Origin: Pseudomonadota bacterium
GTDB lineage: Bacteria; Myxococcota_A; UBA796; GCA-2862545
Reading direction: 5' to 3'
Assembly: GCA_005797785.1 (NCBI GenBank)
Contig: SYKL01000459.1
Span: forward strand, 1-35,800
Length of the DNA stretch: 35,800 bases
Below the pieces are notes generated by a model that did not search any database, was not told where the DNA came from, and saw only the letters and a program-made list of their open reading frames with translations. Shown here in pieces: positions 3,559 through 35,800 of the stretch; position 1 is the first letter of the stretch; the number at the start of each line of letters is the position of its first letter. The position numbers were made by a program, and so were the translations under genes.

Positions 3559-5883
3559 CTACTTGGCCGCTTGATCGAGAGCTTCGGTCACAATGCCACC
3601 GGTGATGATTTCCGGAAGGGGGATCGCCGGCTTGGAACGGTCGGCGGGAAGCACAAGATAAAACGGAACTCCAGCGCGTCCGTGCTTCTTCAGCCATTCG
3701 GTGATCACCGGGTCGCGTCGCGTCCAATCGGCCTGCAGAGGGATGATTCCGTTTTTTTCCATGGAATTGCGAACTTGTTCGCTCGCTAGAACCGTTTTTT
3801 CGTTGGCTTTGCAGGTGAGACACCAGTCGGCCGTGAAGTCGATAAAAACGGGCTTTCCGTCGGTAGCAGCGACATTGGCCTCCGAGAAACTCTGCCACGG
3901 GATTTCGTTCGAGAAGTCGAGGCCTTCCAGTTGCAGAGCCCCGGTTTGTTTTGGTTCGGGGGCTGCAACCGCCAATGAATCTTGAAGGGACCACGTGCCG
4001 CCGGCGGTTACTAGTGCGATCGCCGCGATCGCCGCCGTCCATTGGCGCGCCGGCGTTTCGGCCAAGCCACCCCACTTTCCAAAAACCCAAGCACCGAACG
4101 ACACGAACAGAAGGAAGGTCAGGAAACCGACCGCGCCGTCTCGACTGGTCTGCGCGGCGTGGACGCTCGCCAACCAGATCGTGGTAGCCATAAGGGTAAA
4201 CCCCATCAATTGCTTGAAGGTCTCCATCCAGGCGCCAGGTTTGGGAAGCAACCGAAACAGCGCCGGGACCCAGGCAACGACCAAGAAGGGAAGCGCGAGG
4301 CCGAATCCTACGGTGAGGAAGAACAACACGATGACGGCGGGTGGTTGGCTGAAAGCGAATCCCATCGCAGGCCCAAGGAAAGGCGCGCTGCACGGGGTGG
4401 CCAAAAGCGTGGCGAAAACTCCCGTTAGGAAGTGACCAGCGAGTCCTTCGCGGGCCTGTGCGTTTGCCATTTGATTGCTTCCGATCGCTGGAATCTCGAA
4501 CACGCCGAACATGGAGAGTCCGAAAGCGAAGACGGTGGCCCCGAGGGCGACCACATAGCGGGGATCTTGGAATTGAAATCCCCAACCGATGCCACCGATC
4601 GTCGCCTGGGCGATGATCGCGACCACGGCCAGAGCGGCGAACGAAAGCAAGATACCGAGGGTGTAGGCGACGCCGGCGACGCGGCGGTCGCGATCGGTGA
4701 GAGACGCCTCGTCCACGAGTCCGTACAATTTGAGGGTTAGCACCGGCAGAACGCACGGCATGATGTTCAGTAGGAGGCCCCCGATGAAGGCGAACACCAT
4801 CATCAAAGGCGCCGATTGGGCTGGGCCGGCGGGCGCCTCAGTGGGTGTCGCCTCGGGTGCGGCCGGGACCTCGGCAAACAAAGGCGAATTGGATGGAATA
4901 ACCGTGGCATCTGCCGATGCCCATGGAACAACCCCGGTGATTTCCGTCCGAACTGTCTTTCCGCCGATGTCCACCTGAAACAAGCCGCCGAGACTGCTTT
5001 GAGCCGGCAGTGGATCAAGGGCGAGCGCCTGGCCTTCGAGAATGGCGATCCAAGAGCCATCCGCACCGGCCTTCACAGACGATGAAAACAAGATGAGCTC
5101 GGCAGAGGCGATCGGCGTGAAAGCGGGCCAAGTGCCGGTTTCCGGCAGCGGTGGCAACGGTTTGCCATCGATGGAAGCGAGCCGAATGGCGTATTTGAAG
5201 TCCTTTTCGGGCTGCAATGCGGAGGCATTGGCGGCCATTTCTACGGCGAGTTCGGGATGGGTCCCAATCGCCGAAGGATGCTGCATCTGATAGTGTTCGA
5301 ACAATGCTGCTTGTGGTGAGATGGCCGTGGTGCCTACAGGCAGCGATAGCGAAAGTGACGCTTGACCGGGAATGCAGTTGACTTCGCAAACGAGCCAAGA
5401 GACGTCCGCGCCGAGAGTCACTTCCGAGCTCGGGAGCTCCGGTGGTAGATGAATGGTGCTCCAAAGCAGCACTTGATCTTCGTAGCCGTACGAAACGATG
5501 CCTTCGAGTTCGAAGTGTTGTGGAACGGGGAATTCGTAGGGATCAGCGGTTGCGCCCGCCGGTAAGCTCCACTTGATCTCCGTAGGAAGGCCGATGTCCC
5601 CGGGAGATTTCCAGTAGGTGTGCCAATTGGTTTGCTGTTCGAGCAGAACGCCGACGCGAACGGTGGAGCCCGCTTGCACCGCGCTCTGATCGGCGATCAG
5701 GCGGGACAATACGGGGTGGGGTCGATCTCCCGCGTCAGCCGGACGAAAAACAGCTGACGAGGGCAAATTCCCCAGGTCGACCGCGGGGGGCGGTGGTGGT
5801 TTGGGGGACGCTGTTCCGCTAGCGAGCGCAAAGGACGATAGAAACAGGAGCGAGGTCATGGAACCCATCCGAAGGCCGCCCAT
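3559..5883 (-). CDS. dsbD: DsbD/ScsB-type protein-disulfide reductase
   Basis: 774 residues. This membrane enzyme carries electrons from cytoplasmic thioredoxin to periplasmic thiol proteins. From the chosen ATG at 5883 the order is: signal peptide (about 9-25); periplasmic DsbD-alpha/ScsB-like domain with WLVCEVNCIPG giving Cys166 and Cys170; a Pro/Ala linker; an eight-helix DsbD/CcdA core from about 360 with MPCVLPVL (Cys377) and TPCSAPFLG (Cys498); and a C-terminal thioredoxin-like domain with FTADWCLTCKAN (Cys688, Cys691). All three cysteine pairs of the relay are present. A longer frame from 5991 would overlap the DUF6165 gene and lacks a signal peptide, so the start at 5883, preceded by GGGG, is preferred. 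It is third in a minus-strand cluster after an AmpG-like permease and the DUF6165 gene. Confidence 0.93.
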   Translation of the reverse strand: MGGLRMGSMTSLLFLSSFALASGTASPKPPPPPAVDLGNLPSSAVFRPADAGDRPHPVLSRLIADQSAVQAGSTVRVGVLLEQQTNWHTYWKSPGDIGLPTEIKWSLPAGATADPYEFPVPQHFELEGIVSYGYEDQVLLWSTIHLPPELPSSEVTLGADVSWLVCEVNCIPGQASLSLSLPVGTTAISPQAALFEHYQMQHPSAIGTHPELAVEMAANASALQPEKDFKYAIRLASIDGKPLPPLPETGTWPAFTPIASAELILFSSSVKAGADGSWIAILEGQALALDPLPAQSSLGGLFQVDIGGKTVRTEITGVVPWASADATVIPSNSPLFAEVPAAPEATPTEAPAGPAQSAPLMMVFAFIGGLLLNIMPCVLPVLTLKLYGLVDEASLTDRDRRVAGVAYTLGILLSFAALAVVAIIAQATIGGIGWGFQFQDPRYVVALGATVFAFGLSMFGVFEIPAIGSNQMANAQAREGLAGHFLTGVFATLLATPCSAPFLGPAMGFAFSQPPAVIVLFFLTVGFGLALPFLVVAWVPALFRLLPKPGAWMETFKQLMGFTLMATTIWLASVHAAQTSRDGAVGFLTFLLFVSFGAWVFGKWGGLAETPARQWTAAIAAIALVTAGGTWSLQDSLAVAAPEPKQTGALQLEGLDFSNEIPWQSFSEANVAATDGKPVFIDFTADWCLTCKANEKTVLASEQVRNSMEKNGIIPLQADWTRRDPVITEWLKKHGRAGVPFYLVLPADRSKPAIPLPEIITGGIVTEALDQAAK

Positions 5884-5920
5884 CGTACCCCAATTCGATG
5901 TCAACCGAGATTGGCGTCCG

Positions 5921-6316
5921 TCAAACTTCGTCGGGCTTCTGGTAGGAGCGGTACCCTTTTTGTTCCGGCCATTTTGCACCGGTATGGGCATTGATCGCGC
6001 GCTTTAACGCCGCACGCTTGTCGTTTGTGAGGTAAACGCTCCGGGCAAGACGGACAAAAGTCGGTCCAAAGTCTTGATTGCGCTCGTGCTCGCGGATGTC
6101 ATCCTCGATTTCCCAGAGCTGGCAGTTCACGTCAAACAACTCCTGCCATTCTTGCAAGTCGGTCCAGGCCCCGCCGACCTGTCTTTTCCATCCCGAAGCG
6201 AGCTCGGCCAACTCGTCAACCACCTTTACGATTTGGTCGGGAGCCAGACGTTGGGACTTAATGGTCAGAATGGCAGCGCGATCGGCTACTTCTCCAGCAC
6301 TTACTTCGATGATCAC
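5921..6316 (-). CDS. DUF6165 family protein
   Basis: 131 residues, matching the usual length of DUF6165. It opens IIEVSAGEVADRAAILTIK, the family's typical MxIEVSxGExxDKxxILxIK start, and contains LWEIEDDIREHERNQDFG and LARSVYLTNDKRAALKR, both strongly conserved. Members are small, soluble and helical and often sit near envelope or polysaccharide genes; the biochemical role is unknown. The start is GTG at 6316, and its first bases overlap the TGA of the upstream permease (GTGA), which suggests translational coupling. A gap of 37 bases separates it from the dsbD start. Confidence 0.88.
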   Translation of the reverse strand: MIIEVSAGEVADRAAILTIKSQRLAPDQIVKVVDELAELASGWKRQVGGAWTDLQEWQELFDVNCQLWEIEDDIREHERNQDFGPTFVRLARSVYLTNDKRAALKRAINAHTGAKWPEQKGYRSYQKPDEV

Positions 6317-7587
6317 GAATTCTCCAAACGGCTACGGATGGCGGGCAGCAACAGAAAAGCCGGCAACGCCATAACAAAGGTGATCGCAAAAAAAGTGGAA
6401 TAACTAGTACTTTCGGTAATGTAACCGCTGGTGGCACCCGCAATGGATCGGGTGAAACCGGCGAGTGCCGACAGCAGCGCAAAACGGGTTGCCGCTTGTT
6501 CGCCCTTGGTCGCCTGGGTGAGCACCGCCAGAAAAGCAGCGGTTCCTAGGCCCTGAGTCAAGCTTTCAAACACGCTTGCGACGTATACCCCGGAGCGAGA
6601 TGGCTCAAGCGCTACCAAGCAATACACGAGGTTTGAAAGAGCCTGTAGCGCTCCCAGGGACCATAGGGCGTGAAAGGTGCCGATACGCGTGGTGATCTCC
6701 CCGCCGACCAACGCGCCGATCACCACCAAGGCCGTCCCCAGTGTGATGGAAATGATGCTGATCTCCTGCACAGAGAGCCCAGCATGCTTCCAAAAGGGGT
6801 CGACCATAGGGACGATGGCCGCGTCGCCCAGCTTGAATGTCAATACAAAGGCGACGAGAAGAATGGTTCCTAACCAACCATCCCCGCGTAACCAGCGGAA
6901 CAATTCCGCGGACCACTGCGTGAGTGGGCGGGGCGTTTGGGGAAGCTCCCGTAATTGGGTTGCGAGCAGGGCCCCGATCAGACAAAGTGCGCCGGCGATC
7001 CAGAAAATATTGGTCCAACTAAGGTATCCGCTGAGCCAGCCGAGCCCCCCGCCGGCGCTGAGCATCGCGGTGCGGTAGGCGGCGACCCGTACGCCATTTA
7101 GTCGGCCGTGCATTACTTTTGGAGTGCTCGCGGTGGAATACCCGTCGATCGCAACGTCTTGGGTAGCGCTCGCGAAAGCAATACCCAGCAGCAATATCCA
7201 AAACCAAGGGGAGGTATGACCGGCCACGGGGAGGGCGGCCGTGAGAAATCCAGCGCTCAAAAGCGAACCTGCGATCCACCAGCGGGCAGTGCCATGTCGG
7301 TCGACCAAAGGAGCCCAAAAAACCTTGAAAGTCCAAGGTAGTCCGATCAGGCTCACCAAACCCATCTGTTTGAGGGAGGTGTTTTCGGCAGTAAGCCAGA
7401 GAGACACAAGTTTATTGACGATTCCATACGGCCAACCCGATGCCAAGTTGATCGCGGCGATGGTCAGCCACCAACGCGCACCACTCCAAGGAGAAGGGCG
7501 AAGTTCATCTTTAGGTGGTTCGAACGGGGCGACCATTGGATCCGACCAATCGTCGCGGTGGACAGAAGGACTCTGCAGCGACGGCAT
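6313..7587 (-). CDS. AmpG-like MFS permease
   Basis: 424 residues with about 12 hydrophobic segments. The N-terminal half has the AmpG/acetyl-CoA-transporter-type features: an opening helix WWLTIAAINLASGWPYGI, a loop WAPLVDRHGTARWW, and the signature FASATQDVAIDGY in transmembrane helix 4-5. AmpG permeases import anhydro-muropeptides for peptidoglycan recycling; related AmpG-like carriers move acyl-CoA or siderophores. No recycling gene (ampD, nagZ, anmK) is nearby, so the substrate is open. The start may instead be ATG 7536, since neither ATG has a clear Shine-Dalgarno. It heads a cluster with DUF6165 and dsbD and diverges from the lipoprotein at 7627. Confidence 0.82.
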   Translation of the reverse strand: MPSLQSPSVHRDDWSDPMVAPFEPPKDELRPSPWSGARWWLTIAAINLASGWPYGIVNKLVSLWLTAENTSLKQMGLVSLIGLPWTFKVFWAPLVDRHGTARWWIAGSLLSAGFLTAALPVAGHTSPWFWILLLGIAFASATQDVAIDGYSTASTPKVMHGRLNGVRVAAYRTAMLSAGGGLGWLSGYLSWTNIFWIAGALCLIGALLATQLRELPQTPRPLTQWSAELFRWLRGDGWLGTILLVAFVLTFKLGDAAIVPMVDPFWKHAGLSVQEISIISITLGTALVVIGALVGGEITTRIGTFHALWSLGALQALSNLVYCLVALEPSRSGVYVASVFESLTQGLGTAAFLAVLTQATKGEQAATRFALLSALAGFTRSIAGATSGYITESTSYSTFFAITFVMALPAFLLLPAIRSRLENS

Positions 7588-28255: not shown

Positions 28256-28284
28256 TTGCATCGAGGAACAGAACCGCCTAGATT
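28256..28284 (+). promoter_or_regulatory. possible sigma-70 promoter of the SDR gene
   Basis: TTGCAT (28,256-28,261) and TAGATT (28,279-28,284) with a 17-base spacer, about 24 bases upstream of ATG 28,308. The -10 matches four of six consensus bases. The 28,074-28,255 part of this gap has AT-rich runs but no other clear signal. Confidence 0.4.
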
Positions 28285-30471: not shown

Positions 30472-30490
30472 CGTGAACGGTTCGTTCACG
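30472..30490. repeat. perfect 8-bp inverted repeat at the end of the protease gene
   Basis: CGTGAACG (30,472-30,479), a 3-base loop and CGTTCACG (30,483-30,490). It covers the TGA stop of the protease gene and lies six bases upstream of the TTGACG of the next gene. No T run follows, so it may be an operator or a weak terminator; which one is unclear. Confidence 0.7.
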
Positions 30491-32234
30491 GGAATGAGAT
30501 GTTTTCGCTGACGCTCAACGCCTCCGGGATCGGCTGATAACGCCACGTTCGGAGCTTCACGACCATGCATTGCTCCAATGTGGGGTCCGATGAGGATCCT
30601 TTCGCTCGGGCTTGGCTGACGCTTCCGTCGGATGCGACCGAGAATTCCAACGTCCAGGTGCCGTCCACGGCTTGTCCAGCGGTGGCACGTTCTTCATAGC
30701 AGGTGCGCAATTCGGGCAGTCGGCTTTCGGACACCACATGGATCATACGGAGGTGCGGTGATTCCTGGGGGGCTTGGGGCACGCCGCCATAACTGTTGCT
30801 TCCTGCGCTGGTTTCCGGGGAACGAACCATGGACCAGGCCAAGCCATCGCTGTCGTAGAACCAAAGCTCTTTTTGTTTGGTCCAAGCAAGCAATCCGGTT
30901 GGTGTGGCCCAGATGTGTTCATTGTTCGTCGAGGTATCAATTGTGGTATTGCGAGCGAGATCGCGCACGGTGCCGTCGGCCATCAACCCGTAAGTGCGAT
31001 GTTGATGGCAAACCAAGGTACGAACACCTGACCACACCGGACCATCGGTCGTGGTAAGGTTGGTACCGTCATGAACCCAGATGTCATTCTTTGCTTGTAA
31101 ATATGCTTTTCCTGCGCATGCCACGATGCCATCGACGCCGTTGATTTCCAAGTCCAACCACGCTTGGCCATTGTGGCGCATCACGGAACCATCTTTGCCA
31201 AGCGACCACACGTTGCCTTGGGAAACGGCCACCTGGGTGTTGGTGCCATCCCCCCAAAGTTCCCATTCGGTGCCGCCCTTGTGTTTGACGATGTGCCCTG
31301 TGTCCGACTGCACGGCATAGAGGGTGCCGTTGGCGTCGTCGGACGCAATGTCGAGATTGTTGGTACCACTTCCGAGATCGTACCAATCCAATTCGTTGCG
31401 AAGAAGGCGGACTTCACCGTTGGTGAATAGGACAAACGCTTCGCCTGCCGCACCAATGCTGATCTCTTGAACGAGCCCTTGCTCAAACGGCCGCGCCACT
31501 TCGGTTCGGATGGTCGGCGTATTTGGGGCGATCGGGTCGGCGCTTGCCACCGCCGGCGCCTGGCGCGACGCGATGCCTTCCAGAAGGTCCAAGTACGCGC
31601 GAATTTCGGTAGCAGGAATGGCGAGTTTGGTCGTCTGATCCGCGGTCAGCATGGCGACGTTGACGCCCACGACGGCGCCGTACATGTCCACCAGTGGGCC
31701 TCCACTGTTGCCCTGCTGCATGTTGGCGTTGTGCTCCACATACATCAACCCGTGGTCACCTTGATGCAAGGCGGTCACTGCGCCGGGCCGGATGGAAACC
31801 GGAGGATCGGCGCTCGCCCCGCCCAATGCGCGGACGGAGCCCATGGGAAAGCCGATCGCGACCACCGGCTGCGTTTCGAACAGCGTGGTATCGTCGCCCA
31901 ATACGAGATTTCGACCTTTGATTCCAGGGACATGTACCAACGCGAGGTCGTTTTGGGCGTACATGTCGACCACGATCCCTGAGGCATGGATGCCGTCGCG
32001 GGTGCCGCTGTCCAGGACCACCTCGACCGGGTGGTTTGTGCCCACATCTTCCACGACATGGCGGTTGGTGAGGATGTATTCATCGCGGATGAAAAACCCT
32101 GAACCTTCGCCGGTTGTGGTGCGAATGAGAACGGTGCCCTTTTTGAGTTTGCTGACCACGGCGGCGTCCAAGGACGCTCCGGTGGGCTCGGCAAGGGCGA
32201 TTTCGGCAGATGTAACGAGGGGTAGGAACCACAT
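30486..32234 (-). CDS. secreted trypsin-like protease with propeller-like and AgmX/PglI-like domains
   Basis: 582 residues from ATG 32234; a TTG start at 32270 would give a non-signal N-terminus. A short signal sequence (MWFLPLVTSAEIALAEP) leads a trypsin/DegP-like domain (about 25-215) with the triad His59 in TNRHVV, Asp96 in QNDLALV and Ser177 in GNSGGPL. Residues about 245-470 are beta-rich short repeats with W/G/D turns (such as GNVWSLGKDGSVMRHN), like a tectonin-type propeller. The last 95 residues carry a Cys-Tyr pair (ELRTCYEERA), FSVASDGSVSQA, CMVVKLRTWRY and a hydrophobic end, the AgmX/PglI (TonB-like) C-terminal domain seen in myxobacteria. No PDZ domain is present. The triad is intact, so it should be active. 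Confidence 0.85.
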   Translation of the reverse strand: MWFLPLVTSAEIALAEPTGASLDAAVVSKLKKGTVLIRTTTGEGSGFFIRDEYILTNRHVVEDVGTNHPVEVVLDSGTRDGIHASGIVVDMYAQNDLALVHVPGIKGRNLVLGDDTTLFETQPVVAIGFPMGSVRALGGASADPPVSIRPGAVTALHQGDHGLMYVEHNANMQQGNSGGPLVDMYGAVVGVNVAMLTADQTTKLAIPATEIRAYLDLLEGIASRQAPAVASADPIAPNTPTIRTEVARPFEQGLVQEISIGAAGEAFVLFTNGEVRLLRNELDWYDLGSGTNNLDIASDDANGTLYAVQSDTGHIVKHKGGTEWELWGDGTNTQVAVSQGNVWSLGKDGSVMRHNGQAWLDLEINGVDGIVACAGKAYLQAKNDIWVHDGTNLTTTDGPVWSGVRTLVCHQHRTYGLMADGTVRDLARNTTIDTSTNNEHIWATPTGLLAWTKQKELWFYDSDGLAWSMVRSPETSAGSNSYGGVPQAPQESPHLRMIHVVSESRLPELRTCYEERATAGQAVDGTWTLEFSVASDGSVSQARAKGSSSDPTLEQCMVVKLRTWRYQPIPEALSVSENISFP

Positions 32235-32240
32235 TCTAGC

Positions 32241-32270
32241 ATCGTACGGTCCGCTAATGCGGTACGTCAA
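32241..32270 (-). promoter_or_regulatory. candidate promoter producing a leaderless protease mRNA
   Basis: Minus-strand TTGACG (32,270-32,265), 18-base spacer, TACGAT (32,246-32,241), then only GCTAGA before ATG 32,234. A start of transcription at the normal distance would fall at or beside the A of the ATG. No Shine-Dalgarno is seen. Confidence 0.45.
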
Positions 32271-33836: not shown

Positions 33837-34859
33837 TCACGCAGTCGTTGCCGCTGTGCGCATGGCGTCATGATCGTCTTTAGGGACATTCGGGCGCCCC
33901 TTCAGGTCGAGGTAGATCTGCACGGGGTGCGCGACTTGGACATCGTCGACACTGGATCCACCCCAAAGGTAGGAAGGATCTTCGATTTGAATGAAACGAA
34001 TGTTCTGTGGGACGGCATCCGCGTGAAAACGCAGCGCCGCGGCATCGTCGGGCTCTGGGAGACGGTCGACCAAGAAAACCACCTCTGGAAAGTCCTCTCT
34101 GCCCTTGGTCCAACGTGCGGCGGAAATGCCGGTGAGGGCGTGGCTGATGCCGATTTCCGATAGGGAGGCGCTGGTGCGGCGCAACAACTCTTCCGGTGAT
34201 TGCGCGTCGACATGTCCGACGCACTGATCCATTCTAGCAAGATTCCAGGTTTCCCGCCAAGCTTCTAGCATGAGGAAGGTGTCGCGAACGCGAACGCCGT
34301 CGGAATCGCGGAGAACGAGCTGGTCTTGCTCAAGTCGCTGCACGATTCTGCTGGTGAAACCCTCATCTACACCTGCAGAGCGTGCGAGTTCGCGCTGGGA
34401 AAAAGCGCGGGTGGGCTCCAGCAACAGCACTCGAGAAATGCGGGAGCTGCGAGCGGCAAAAGCATTGGAAGGACGCCCGACCTGCTTCTTTATGGGGCGA
34501 CGTCCCTCGACGCGAACGAGCATGCCGGGAAGAACGATATGAGCGTTTCCAGCGGTATCTACCCACGGCAACTGAGCCTGCGTACACAGCTCTCGACCGA
34601 CGGAACCCATGTGGGGTGTGAAAATGAGCGGGATTAGCCGAGATCCGGCTGCGGGCACGCGGGCTTTGAGACGCTCAATTGCCATGGCGATGTGCGCCGT
34701 GCCGCCGGTGGGGGCCCATTCGACGATGAGCGAGCGCCAACCGCTTTTTACTTCGATGCCCGTCTCTGTATGTTCGATACGGACGGAATCCAGCGGGACG
34801 GAAAGGAGGTCGGCCACCAGTGCCAACAACAGATCGAGCGGGGGTGTGGAAATAGGCAT
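33837..34859 (-). CDS. AbiEi-like winged-helix protein (orphan)
   Basis: 340 residues. The central region has WVDTAGNAHIVLPGMLVRVEG (about 99-119) followed by a winged-helix motif FSQRELARSAGVDEGFTSRI (about 153-172), and the C-terminal half ends HPVQIYLDLKGRPNVPKDD. This order (Asp-rich GNAHI strand, wHTH, P-V-Q-x-Y-x-D-L) is the one in AbiEi-type antitoxin and related regulator families. Members act as antitoxins with the nucleotidyltransferase AbiEii, or as stand-alone regulators. No AbiEii-type gene is adjacent: the neighbours are the phosphatase and a small membrane protein. So it is either an orphan regulator or a remnant. Start ATG 34859, weak ribosome site. Confidence 0.7.
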   Translation of the reverse strand: MPISTPPLDLLLALVADLLSVPLDSVRIEHTETGIEVKSGWRSLIVEWAPTGGTAHIAMAIERLKARVPAAGSRLIPLIFTPHMGSVGRELCTQAQLPWVDTAGNAHIVLPGMLVRVEGRRPIKKQVGRPSNAFAARSSRISRVLLLEPTRAFSQRELARSAGVDEGFTSRIVQRLEQDQLVLRDSDGVRVRDTFLMLEAWRETWNLARMDQCVGHVDAQSPEELLRRTSASLSEIGISHALTGISAARWTKGREDFPEVVFLVDRLPEPDDAAALRFHADAVPQNIRFIQIEDPSYLWGGSSVDDVQVAHPVQIYLDLKGRPNVPKDDHDAMRTAATTA

Positions 34860-35276: not shown

Positions 35277-35400
35277 GTGCGGTGCGGGCCCGGACAGAAG
35301 GGGTACACTTCACTGGTTTTGGAGTACCCCGAAAACCGGCTTAGATATGGCGCCCCGCGCTGGTCCAGACGGAGCATAGCGGAGCAGAGACCCTCCTATC
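35277..35400 (+). pseudogene. start of an interrupted gene entering the high-G+C tail
   Basis: GTG 35277 has GGGGAGG four bases upstream and a plausible promoter 30 bases further up. The frame reads RCGPGQKGYTSLVLEYPEN and so on with ordinary local composition until about 35,350. Beyond that the base composition jumps, and the same frame becomes an Arg/Pro/Ala-rich shadow of the helix-turn-helix frame, ending at 35,663. I read this as a genuine gene start cut by an insertion, deletion or assembly join; no family could be recognised from the 25 or so natural residues. The end given here is approximate. Confidence 0.3.
35300..35337. repeat. two nested inverted repeats at the junction
   Basis: GGGGTAC (35,300-35,306) with GTACCCC (35,324-35,330), and GGTTTT (35,315-35,320) with AAAACC (35,332-35,337). 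The two interleave and cannot both form at once. They sit just left of the G+C break, as recombination or attachment sites sometimes do, but could also be a terminator or attenuator-like structure. Confidence 0.6.
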
Positions 35401-35449
35401 GTGGTGCATCACCGCCCGGACGCCCCGCGTGCTCGGGCCCGCGCGCCGG

Positions 35450-35800
35450 ATGCGGCACGTCCTGCTGGACGAGCCTGCGGGCCACGCAGAAGCCGAGGCC
35501 GAACCGTCCGATTCGGACTGCGGGCCACGCGCCGGCGCTGCGGGCCACGACCGCGGGCCACGCCAGCCGGCGCCGAACCGCTGGCTTCCGATGCGCGACC
35601 GGATGCGGGCGACGCTGGAGCGCGCCCGCCGCTACGCCCGCATCATCCGGGAGGACCGGCTGACGCAGGAGGAGCTGGCGTCCCGCGAGGGAGTGTCCGG
35701 CCCGCGCGTGAACCAGGTGCTGTCCTTCCTGCGGCTGGACCCGTCCATCCTCGGGGACCTGACCGACCTGACGAGCAGCGAGCCCATCCCGTCGATGGAC
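35450..35800 (+). CDS. helix-turn-helix protein, C-terminally cut by the window edge
   Basis: From ATG 35450 the frame is open for 117 codons to the edge; it is also open upstream to 35,345 without a better start than a GTG at 35,429. Residues 1-45 are Ala/Pro/Gly-rich. Residues about 46-100 are helical and basic: MRDRMRATLERARRYARII, then the clear HTH segment RLTQEELASREGVSGPRVNQ and VLSFLRLDP. The pattern (TQEELA-x-REGVS-x-x-RVxQ-L) is the ParB/KorB-like HTH found at the ends of serine recombinases and in small proteins near them. The third codon position is almost always G or C, unlike every other gene here, so it is foreign to the rest of the window. Confidence 0.7.
   Translation, partial: MRHVLLDEPAGHAEAEAEPSDSDCGPRAGAAGHDRGPRQPAPNRWLPMRDRMRATLERARRYARIIREDRLTQEELASREGVSGPRVNQVLSFLRLDPSILGDLTDLTSSEPIPSMD
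35477..35562. repeat. four copies of the 10-mer GCGGGCCACG
   Basis: Perfect copies at 35,477-35,486, 35,520-35,529, 35,540-35,549 and 35,553-35,562. Copies 1 and 3 encode Ala-Gly-His, copies 2 and 4 give Gly-Pro-Arg, so they are in two frames of the HTH gene. This points to a nucleotide-level repeat, not protein selection. Confidence 0.75.

Follow-up and report, generated by a model that had tools for sequence, protein, structure and literature searches.

The right-hand tail of the window, the window being the whole 35,800-nucleotide stretch of DNA analysed here, probably marks the left end of a GC-rich island able to move horizontally; its cognate helix-turn-helix (HTH) protein would bind four sites and have a control function. 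The evidence consists of a boundary shared with another genus, of a closely similar unit found in two bacterial classes, and of an array of four short sites whose spacing recurs among the relatives.

Composition break and element boundary

The window is a complete contig of 35800 bp and its right edge is the physical contig end, hence the tail and the HTH gene in it are cut at position 35800, and the remainder of the island would lie outside the contig. The initial annotation had reported a break in composition at about 35345-35400, with 301 of 400 G or C by hand count beyond it and values in the high fifties elsewhere. Recounting gave the same figure for 35401-35800 (301/400, 75.25%), the window mean is 58.6% GC, and a likelihood change-point was placed at 35348 or 35411. 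Left of the break, the richest 400-bp stretch has 67% GC. Among the 14 unmasked contigs sampled, the other contigs of the genome are at about 59–62% GC, with a 400-bp maximum of about 72% and none at 75% or more. Third positions are nearly pure G/C as had been noticed, 92.5% over 35399-35800 and 98.6% from 35591 on. Tetranucleotide profiles of the two sides, a comparison that had been proposed as a check, also differ: the tail lies at a distance of 0.76–0.79 from the left side, against 0.46 +/− 0.04 (maximum 0.61) among 400-bp pieces of the left side, and is nearer to the GC-rich same-genus genome G001 (distance 0.52). An ordinary high-GC host gene was rejected as an explanation, since none of the 400-bp pieces sampled from the genome is alike and the boundary is a shared one. 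That boundary has two descriptions:

35348..35357, minus strand: left boundary of the element, TGGCGCCCCG, where homology with genome G003 starts
35348..35357, minus strand: boundary core read on the minus strand, CGGGGCGCCA, resembling the 3′ end of the tRNA-Asn gene of relatives, GGGGAGCCA

In a search of 38 genomes, the tail was matched over its length at the DNA level by G003 only (record REDI01000059), which is of the same family as the window but of another genus. Identity is 69% from 35348 to 35800, and no match was found left of 35348. A second left end is present in G003 at the end of contig C40, after unrelated DNA (98.7% identical over 79 bp), and the two G003 copies part from each other at the very base where the homology with the window begins. 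TGGCGCCCCG therefore opens three copies, one in the window and two in G003, each behind a different unrelated flank. As the same left end occurs twice in G003 behind unrelated DNA, the break is best read as a conserved element boundary; a sharp boundary with unrelated flanks was likewise found for the pair L097/L098 described below. The boundary 10-mer resembles an inverted attachment-like core, although a 9-mer of it recurs by chance at window position 28284, so that the core alone is weak evidence.

In G003, the two left-end copies are in direct orientation, 5388 bp apart (L009, 8335-13722), the second being at the contig end. This corresponds either to a tandem array or to the assembler's reading of a circular form. 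When the genome and viral contigs were scanned for the left-end motif, only the G003 record, with its two copies, gave genuine matches; the others had no likeness past the motif and look like chance occurrences in GC-rich genomes.

Mobility could be judged on a relative of the element. Loci L097 (genome G174, from another class) and L098 (genome G038, from the window's own class) share 95.9% identity over a 761-bp stretch that begins at the tRNA 3′ end and closes with the HTH stop codon, and differ in their upstream tRNAs and in their downstream DNA. Judging from these sequences, a relative of the window element is evidently mobile. In L098 the GC content climbs from 65% to 72% at the tRNA/HTH junction, a break of the kind seen in the window, and the region is GC-rich (66–75%) in 12 relatives. 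Between the two readings first offered for the break, a mobile-element edge or an assembly join, the boundary shared with G003, the tRNA-Asn relatives and the L097/L098 unit favour the former.

Two genes on the minus strand left of the boundary were looked at. A 340-aa winged-HTH protein with a weak MarR match is encoded at 33837-34859, 0.5 kb from the boundary. In G027:C360 a homologue shares its contig with an HTH element, and several homologues occur close to contig ends, so this protein may be island cargo. Further left, at 30486-32270, a 594-aa protein has a trypsin-like protease match and a TonB C-terminal match just under the cut-off.

The HTH gene and its four sites

The gene that opens the proposed island and the sites it contains, all on the plus strand, are as follows:

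35345..35800, plus strand: 5′ part of the HTH gene, open frame to the contig end, first half of the protein
35612..35755, plus strand: ParB-type helix-turn-helix domain (PF17762, residues 72-119 of P0001; model of a homologue)
35476..35487, plus strand: site 1, TGCGGGCCACGC
35519..35530, plus strand: site 2, TGCGGGCCACGC, 43 bp after site 1
35539..35550, plus strand: site 3, TGCGGGCCACGA, 20 bp after site 2
35552..35563, plus strand: site 4, CGCGGGCCACGC, 13 bp after site 3

The ParB/KorB-like character first ascribed to the protein was borne out by a match to Pfam HTH_ParB (PF17762, E=3e-6, above the cut-off) and by PDB folds that include Spo0J, Noc and KorB; the kinship with proteins found near serine recombinases also held, PHROG 14161 (“recombinase”) matching relatives with E-values down to 7e-21. 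The domain in the window is the first of two that are present in full-length relatives. The model of the G001 homologue has two well-predicted helical HTH halves preceded by about 93 N-terminal residues of low confidence, which are probably disordered. Its closest solved folds are the DNA-binding domains of Spo0J, Noc and KorB, as local matches of modest E-value (about 2 Å over 87 residues for Noc), and the one PDB match by sequence is Spo0J. A ParB-type HTH DNA-binding domain is thus found both by profile and by fold. No match to the ParB N-terminal CTP-binding (CTPase) domain was obtained, full-length relatives included, and the protein had no matches among phage records, plasmids and viral contigs.

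Aligned with 12 relatives, the protein is 26–59% identical to them. Of the usual start codons in frame, the first is GTG 35429, and the N-terminal motif LLSWCI.., common to relatives, lies upstream of it, at 35393-35410. All 13 sequences share a tryptophan ahead of the first HTH, so translation probably starts upstream and the four sites are within the gene. Downstream of the HTH gene, a convergent gene for a sigma-54-type AAA+ regulator is present in 7 of 12 loci, and no recurrent ParA-like neighbour was seen among the 12. Two more minus-strand genes recur beside the regulator in L112, L114, L120 and L121.

The array in the window consists of four 12-bp sites, TGCGGGCCACGC or a one-base variant, spaced 43-20-13 and lying in the 5′ part of the HTH gene, 128–215 bp from the boundary. 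It was scored as four like 11-mers at offsets 0-43-63-76, with a maximum of 44. The window reaches 43/44, as compared to at most 36 in 1000 dinucleotide shuffles, and in all DNA fetched to that point scores of at least 40 were confined to the HTH genes of the relatives and of the window. The offsets were picked after seeing the data, and the weight therefore rests on recurrence. Exactly the same 43-20-13 spacing is found in L113, L114, L115, L116, L117, L118 and L122, and also in L097, though it comes from another class. Spacing is 43-20-15 in L119 and 42-20-17, with the last site inverted, in L120 and L121; L112 has four sites in another arrangement. In G003 one site is gone through a 20-bp deletion, and the N-terminal motif and the HTH are in different frames. 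No sites of the array were seen in L124.

The site sequence is near-constant inside one element and different from element to element: TGCGGGCCACG in the window and G003, GAATCGGGCCACG in G001, TCAACGCGCCACG in three loci, and further element-specific sequences (GAATCCCGCCACG, CTTGCGGGACACG and others). Coding repeats were rejected as an explanation. None of the spacings (43, 20 and 13) is divisible by three, and inverted sites occur, which makes the array a feature of the DNA. It would most simply correspond to putative protein-binding sites. The open-access full-text papers searched gave no description of a rigid four-site array whose sequence is particular to each element; tRNA-Asn islands and ParB-type HTH proteins are already known, and the rigid array is what is new here.

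tRNA-Asn genes, cores and recombinases

Of 379 genomes of the phylum covered by a protein search, 27 had matches to the HTH protein, the strongest being in the same order. The open frame before the HTH gene emerges from a tRNA gene in many relatives, and at eight loci ARAGORN placed a tRNA-Asn immediately ahead of the HTH gene. Among relatives the HTH gene usually starts at a tRNA-Asn 3′ end. Where no tRNA was called, it often follows an attachment-like core, GGGGAGCCAT, and in G015:C684 this core lies directly after a serine recombinase. The core is inverted (TGGCKCCCC) in the window, in G003 (twice) and in G027:C360, which suggests that the HTH end may have come to face away from the tRNA when the island inserted, the window copy being the distal end. 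No tRNA was found in the window, so that for this copy an element end at a tRNA 3′ end was not observed.

Neither was a recombinase found in the window, nor a serine recombinase in its own, incomplete genome. Serine recombinases are present in 13 of the 16 genomes searched, one of them adjoining an HTH core, and other tRNA-Asn genes of the relatives’ genomes abut serine recombinases. In L155 (G003:C51), a serine recombinase frame (5430-7148, plus strand) runs antisense into a tRNA-Asn (7091-7167, minus strand); by profile this recombinase resembles the cassette recombinase CcrB, far under the family cut-off. In L157 (G043:C229, around 180-227), a 46-bp partial copy of the 3′ half of tRNA-Asn lies beside a serine recombinase gene, and is read from its sequence as a displaced attachment half.

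Two further ideas were set aside. An empty site was not supported, the phosphodiesterase gene of the left flank not being beside tRNA-Asn in relatives. A tRNA terminator hairpin is strong between the tRNA and the sites in several tRNA-adjacent copies, and the window lacks it (z −0.5).

Proposed function, alternatives and known systems

The first gene of the island would encode a tandem HTH protein of the Noc/Spo0J type. From the geometry, this protein may bind the four sites that the 5′ portion of its gene contains; once bound, it would repress that gene and build a nucleoprotein complex at the recombination end of the island, in the manner of an accessory or directionality factor that assists a site-specific recombinase. 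The best candidate partners are the serine recombinases that adjoin tRNA-Asn genes in relatives. Binding of the protein to these sites, with repression of its gene and organisation of the recombination end, is, on present sequences, the most likely of the readings considered, and one we hold with some confidence. The sites vary between elements, agree within one and may be inverted, as fits binding sites. Counted against the island reading as a whole are the absence of a tRNA from the window, the failure to find a serine recombinase in the incomplete genome, a left flank that in relatives does not adjoin tRNA-Asn, the length of the inverted core, only about 10 bases, and the DNA match of the tail, in one genome only.

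An assembly chimera, in which the last 450 bp would have come from another GC-rich organism of the sample and been misjoined, is unlikely. The assembly is a draft MAG of 514 contigs, the break is just 450 bp from the contig end, and the tail is more like GC-rich relatives than like its own genome, all of which speak for a misjoin. Yet the join falls on the same base where two G003 copies begin, which would not be expected of a random join; an assembler needs a shared k-mer, but the shared stretch is only about 10 bases; and L098 has the same kind of GC break at its tRNA end.

Two other readings keep the island end and change the role of its parts. A layout in which repeats lie 130–220 bp from a core at the 3′ end of a tRNA resembles the attachment sites of tyrosine integrases, and spacings of 13 to 20 bp would be plausible for arm-type sites bound by an integrase, the HTH protein being a mere neighbour. 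We find this doubtful: the sites fall inside the HTH gene of each element, at most loci no integrase gene is seen next to them, and the recombinases seen at tRNA-Asn in the relatives’ genomes, in searches directed at serine recombinases, belong to that type, for which arm sites are normally unnecessary. Very unlikely, in our opinion, is a partition or maintenance locus made of a ParB-like protein and its centromere. The Noc/Spo0J/KorB-type fold and the clustering of the sites agree with it, but neither a match to a ParB N-terminal CTPase domain nor, among the 12 loci, a recurrent ParA-like neighbour was found, and it is the sigma-54-type regulator that recurs, in seven of them.

Going beyond the binding and repression proposed above, we suggest tentatively that these islands form a family with a self-addressing module, in which a tandem HTH protein of the ParB type is combined with four sites of its own at 43-20-13. 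Protein and site would change together, and several islands could then coexist at one tRNA-Asn locus without cross-talk. Many islands sit at tRNA genes; what is unusual is a control array that combines rigid geometry with free sequence. The family would offer a natural set of putative matched protein-site pairs for the change of specificity in ParB/Noc-type proteins, and four like 11-mers at offsets 0-43-63-76 are a simple signature for island ends in draft genomes.

Genomic islands targeted to tRNA genes include the Asn-tDNA islands of Klebsiella (PMC4891358) and those of the Islander set (PMC4383910). Relatives of the present element are like them in starting at tRNA-Asn 3′ ends and having varied downstream genes; the window copy differs, being without an adjoining tRNA and having its core inverted. 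Such islands are usually moved by tyrosine integrases, whereas the relatives show serine recombinases. The HTH protein shares its DNA-binding fold with Noc, Spo0J and KorB of the ParB superfamily, but has two HTH halves in tandem, a predicted disordered N-terminus and no CTPase domain match. PHROG 14161, a phage family of 143 aa, matches the HTH halves of relatives and only those regions, and the HTH protein is without a catalytic recombinase domain. Finally, RdfS, a winged-HTH directionality factor, controls excision of an ICE (PMC11963761). It has another fold and a tyrosine-recombinase partner; the likeness, a DNA-binding protein near an attachment site, would concern the way of working only.
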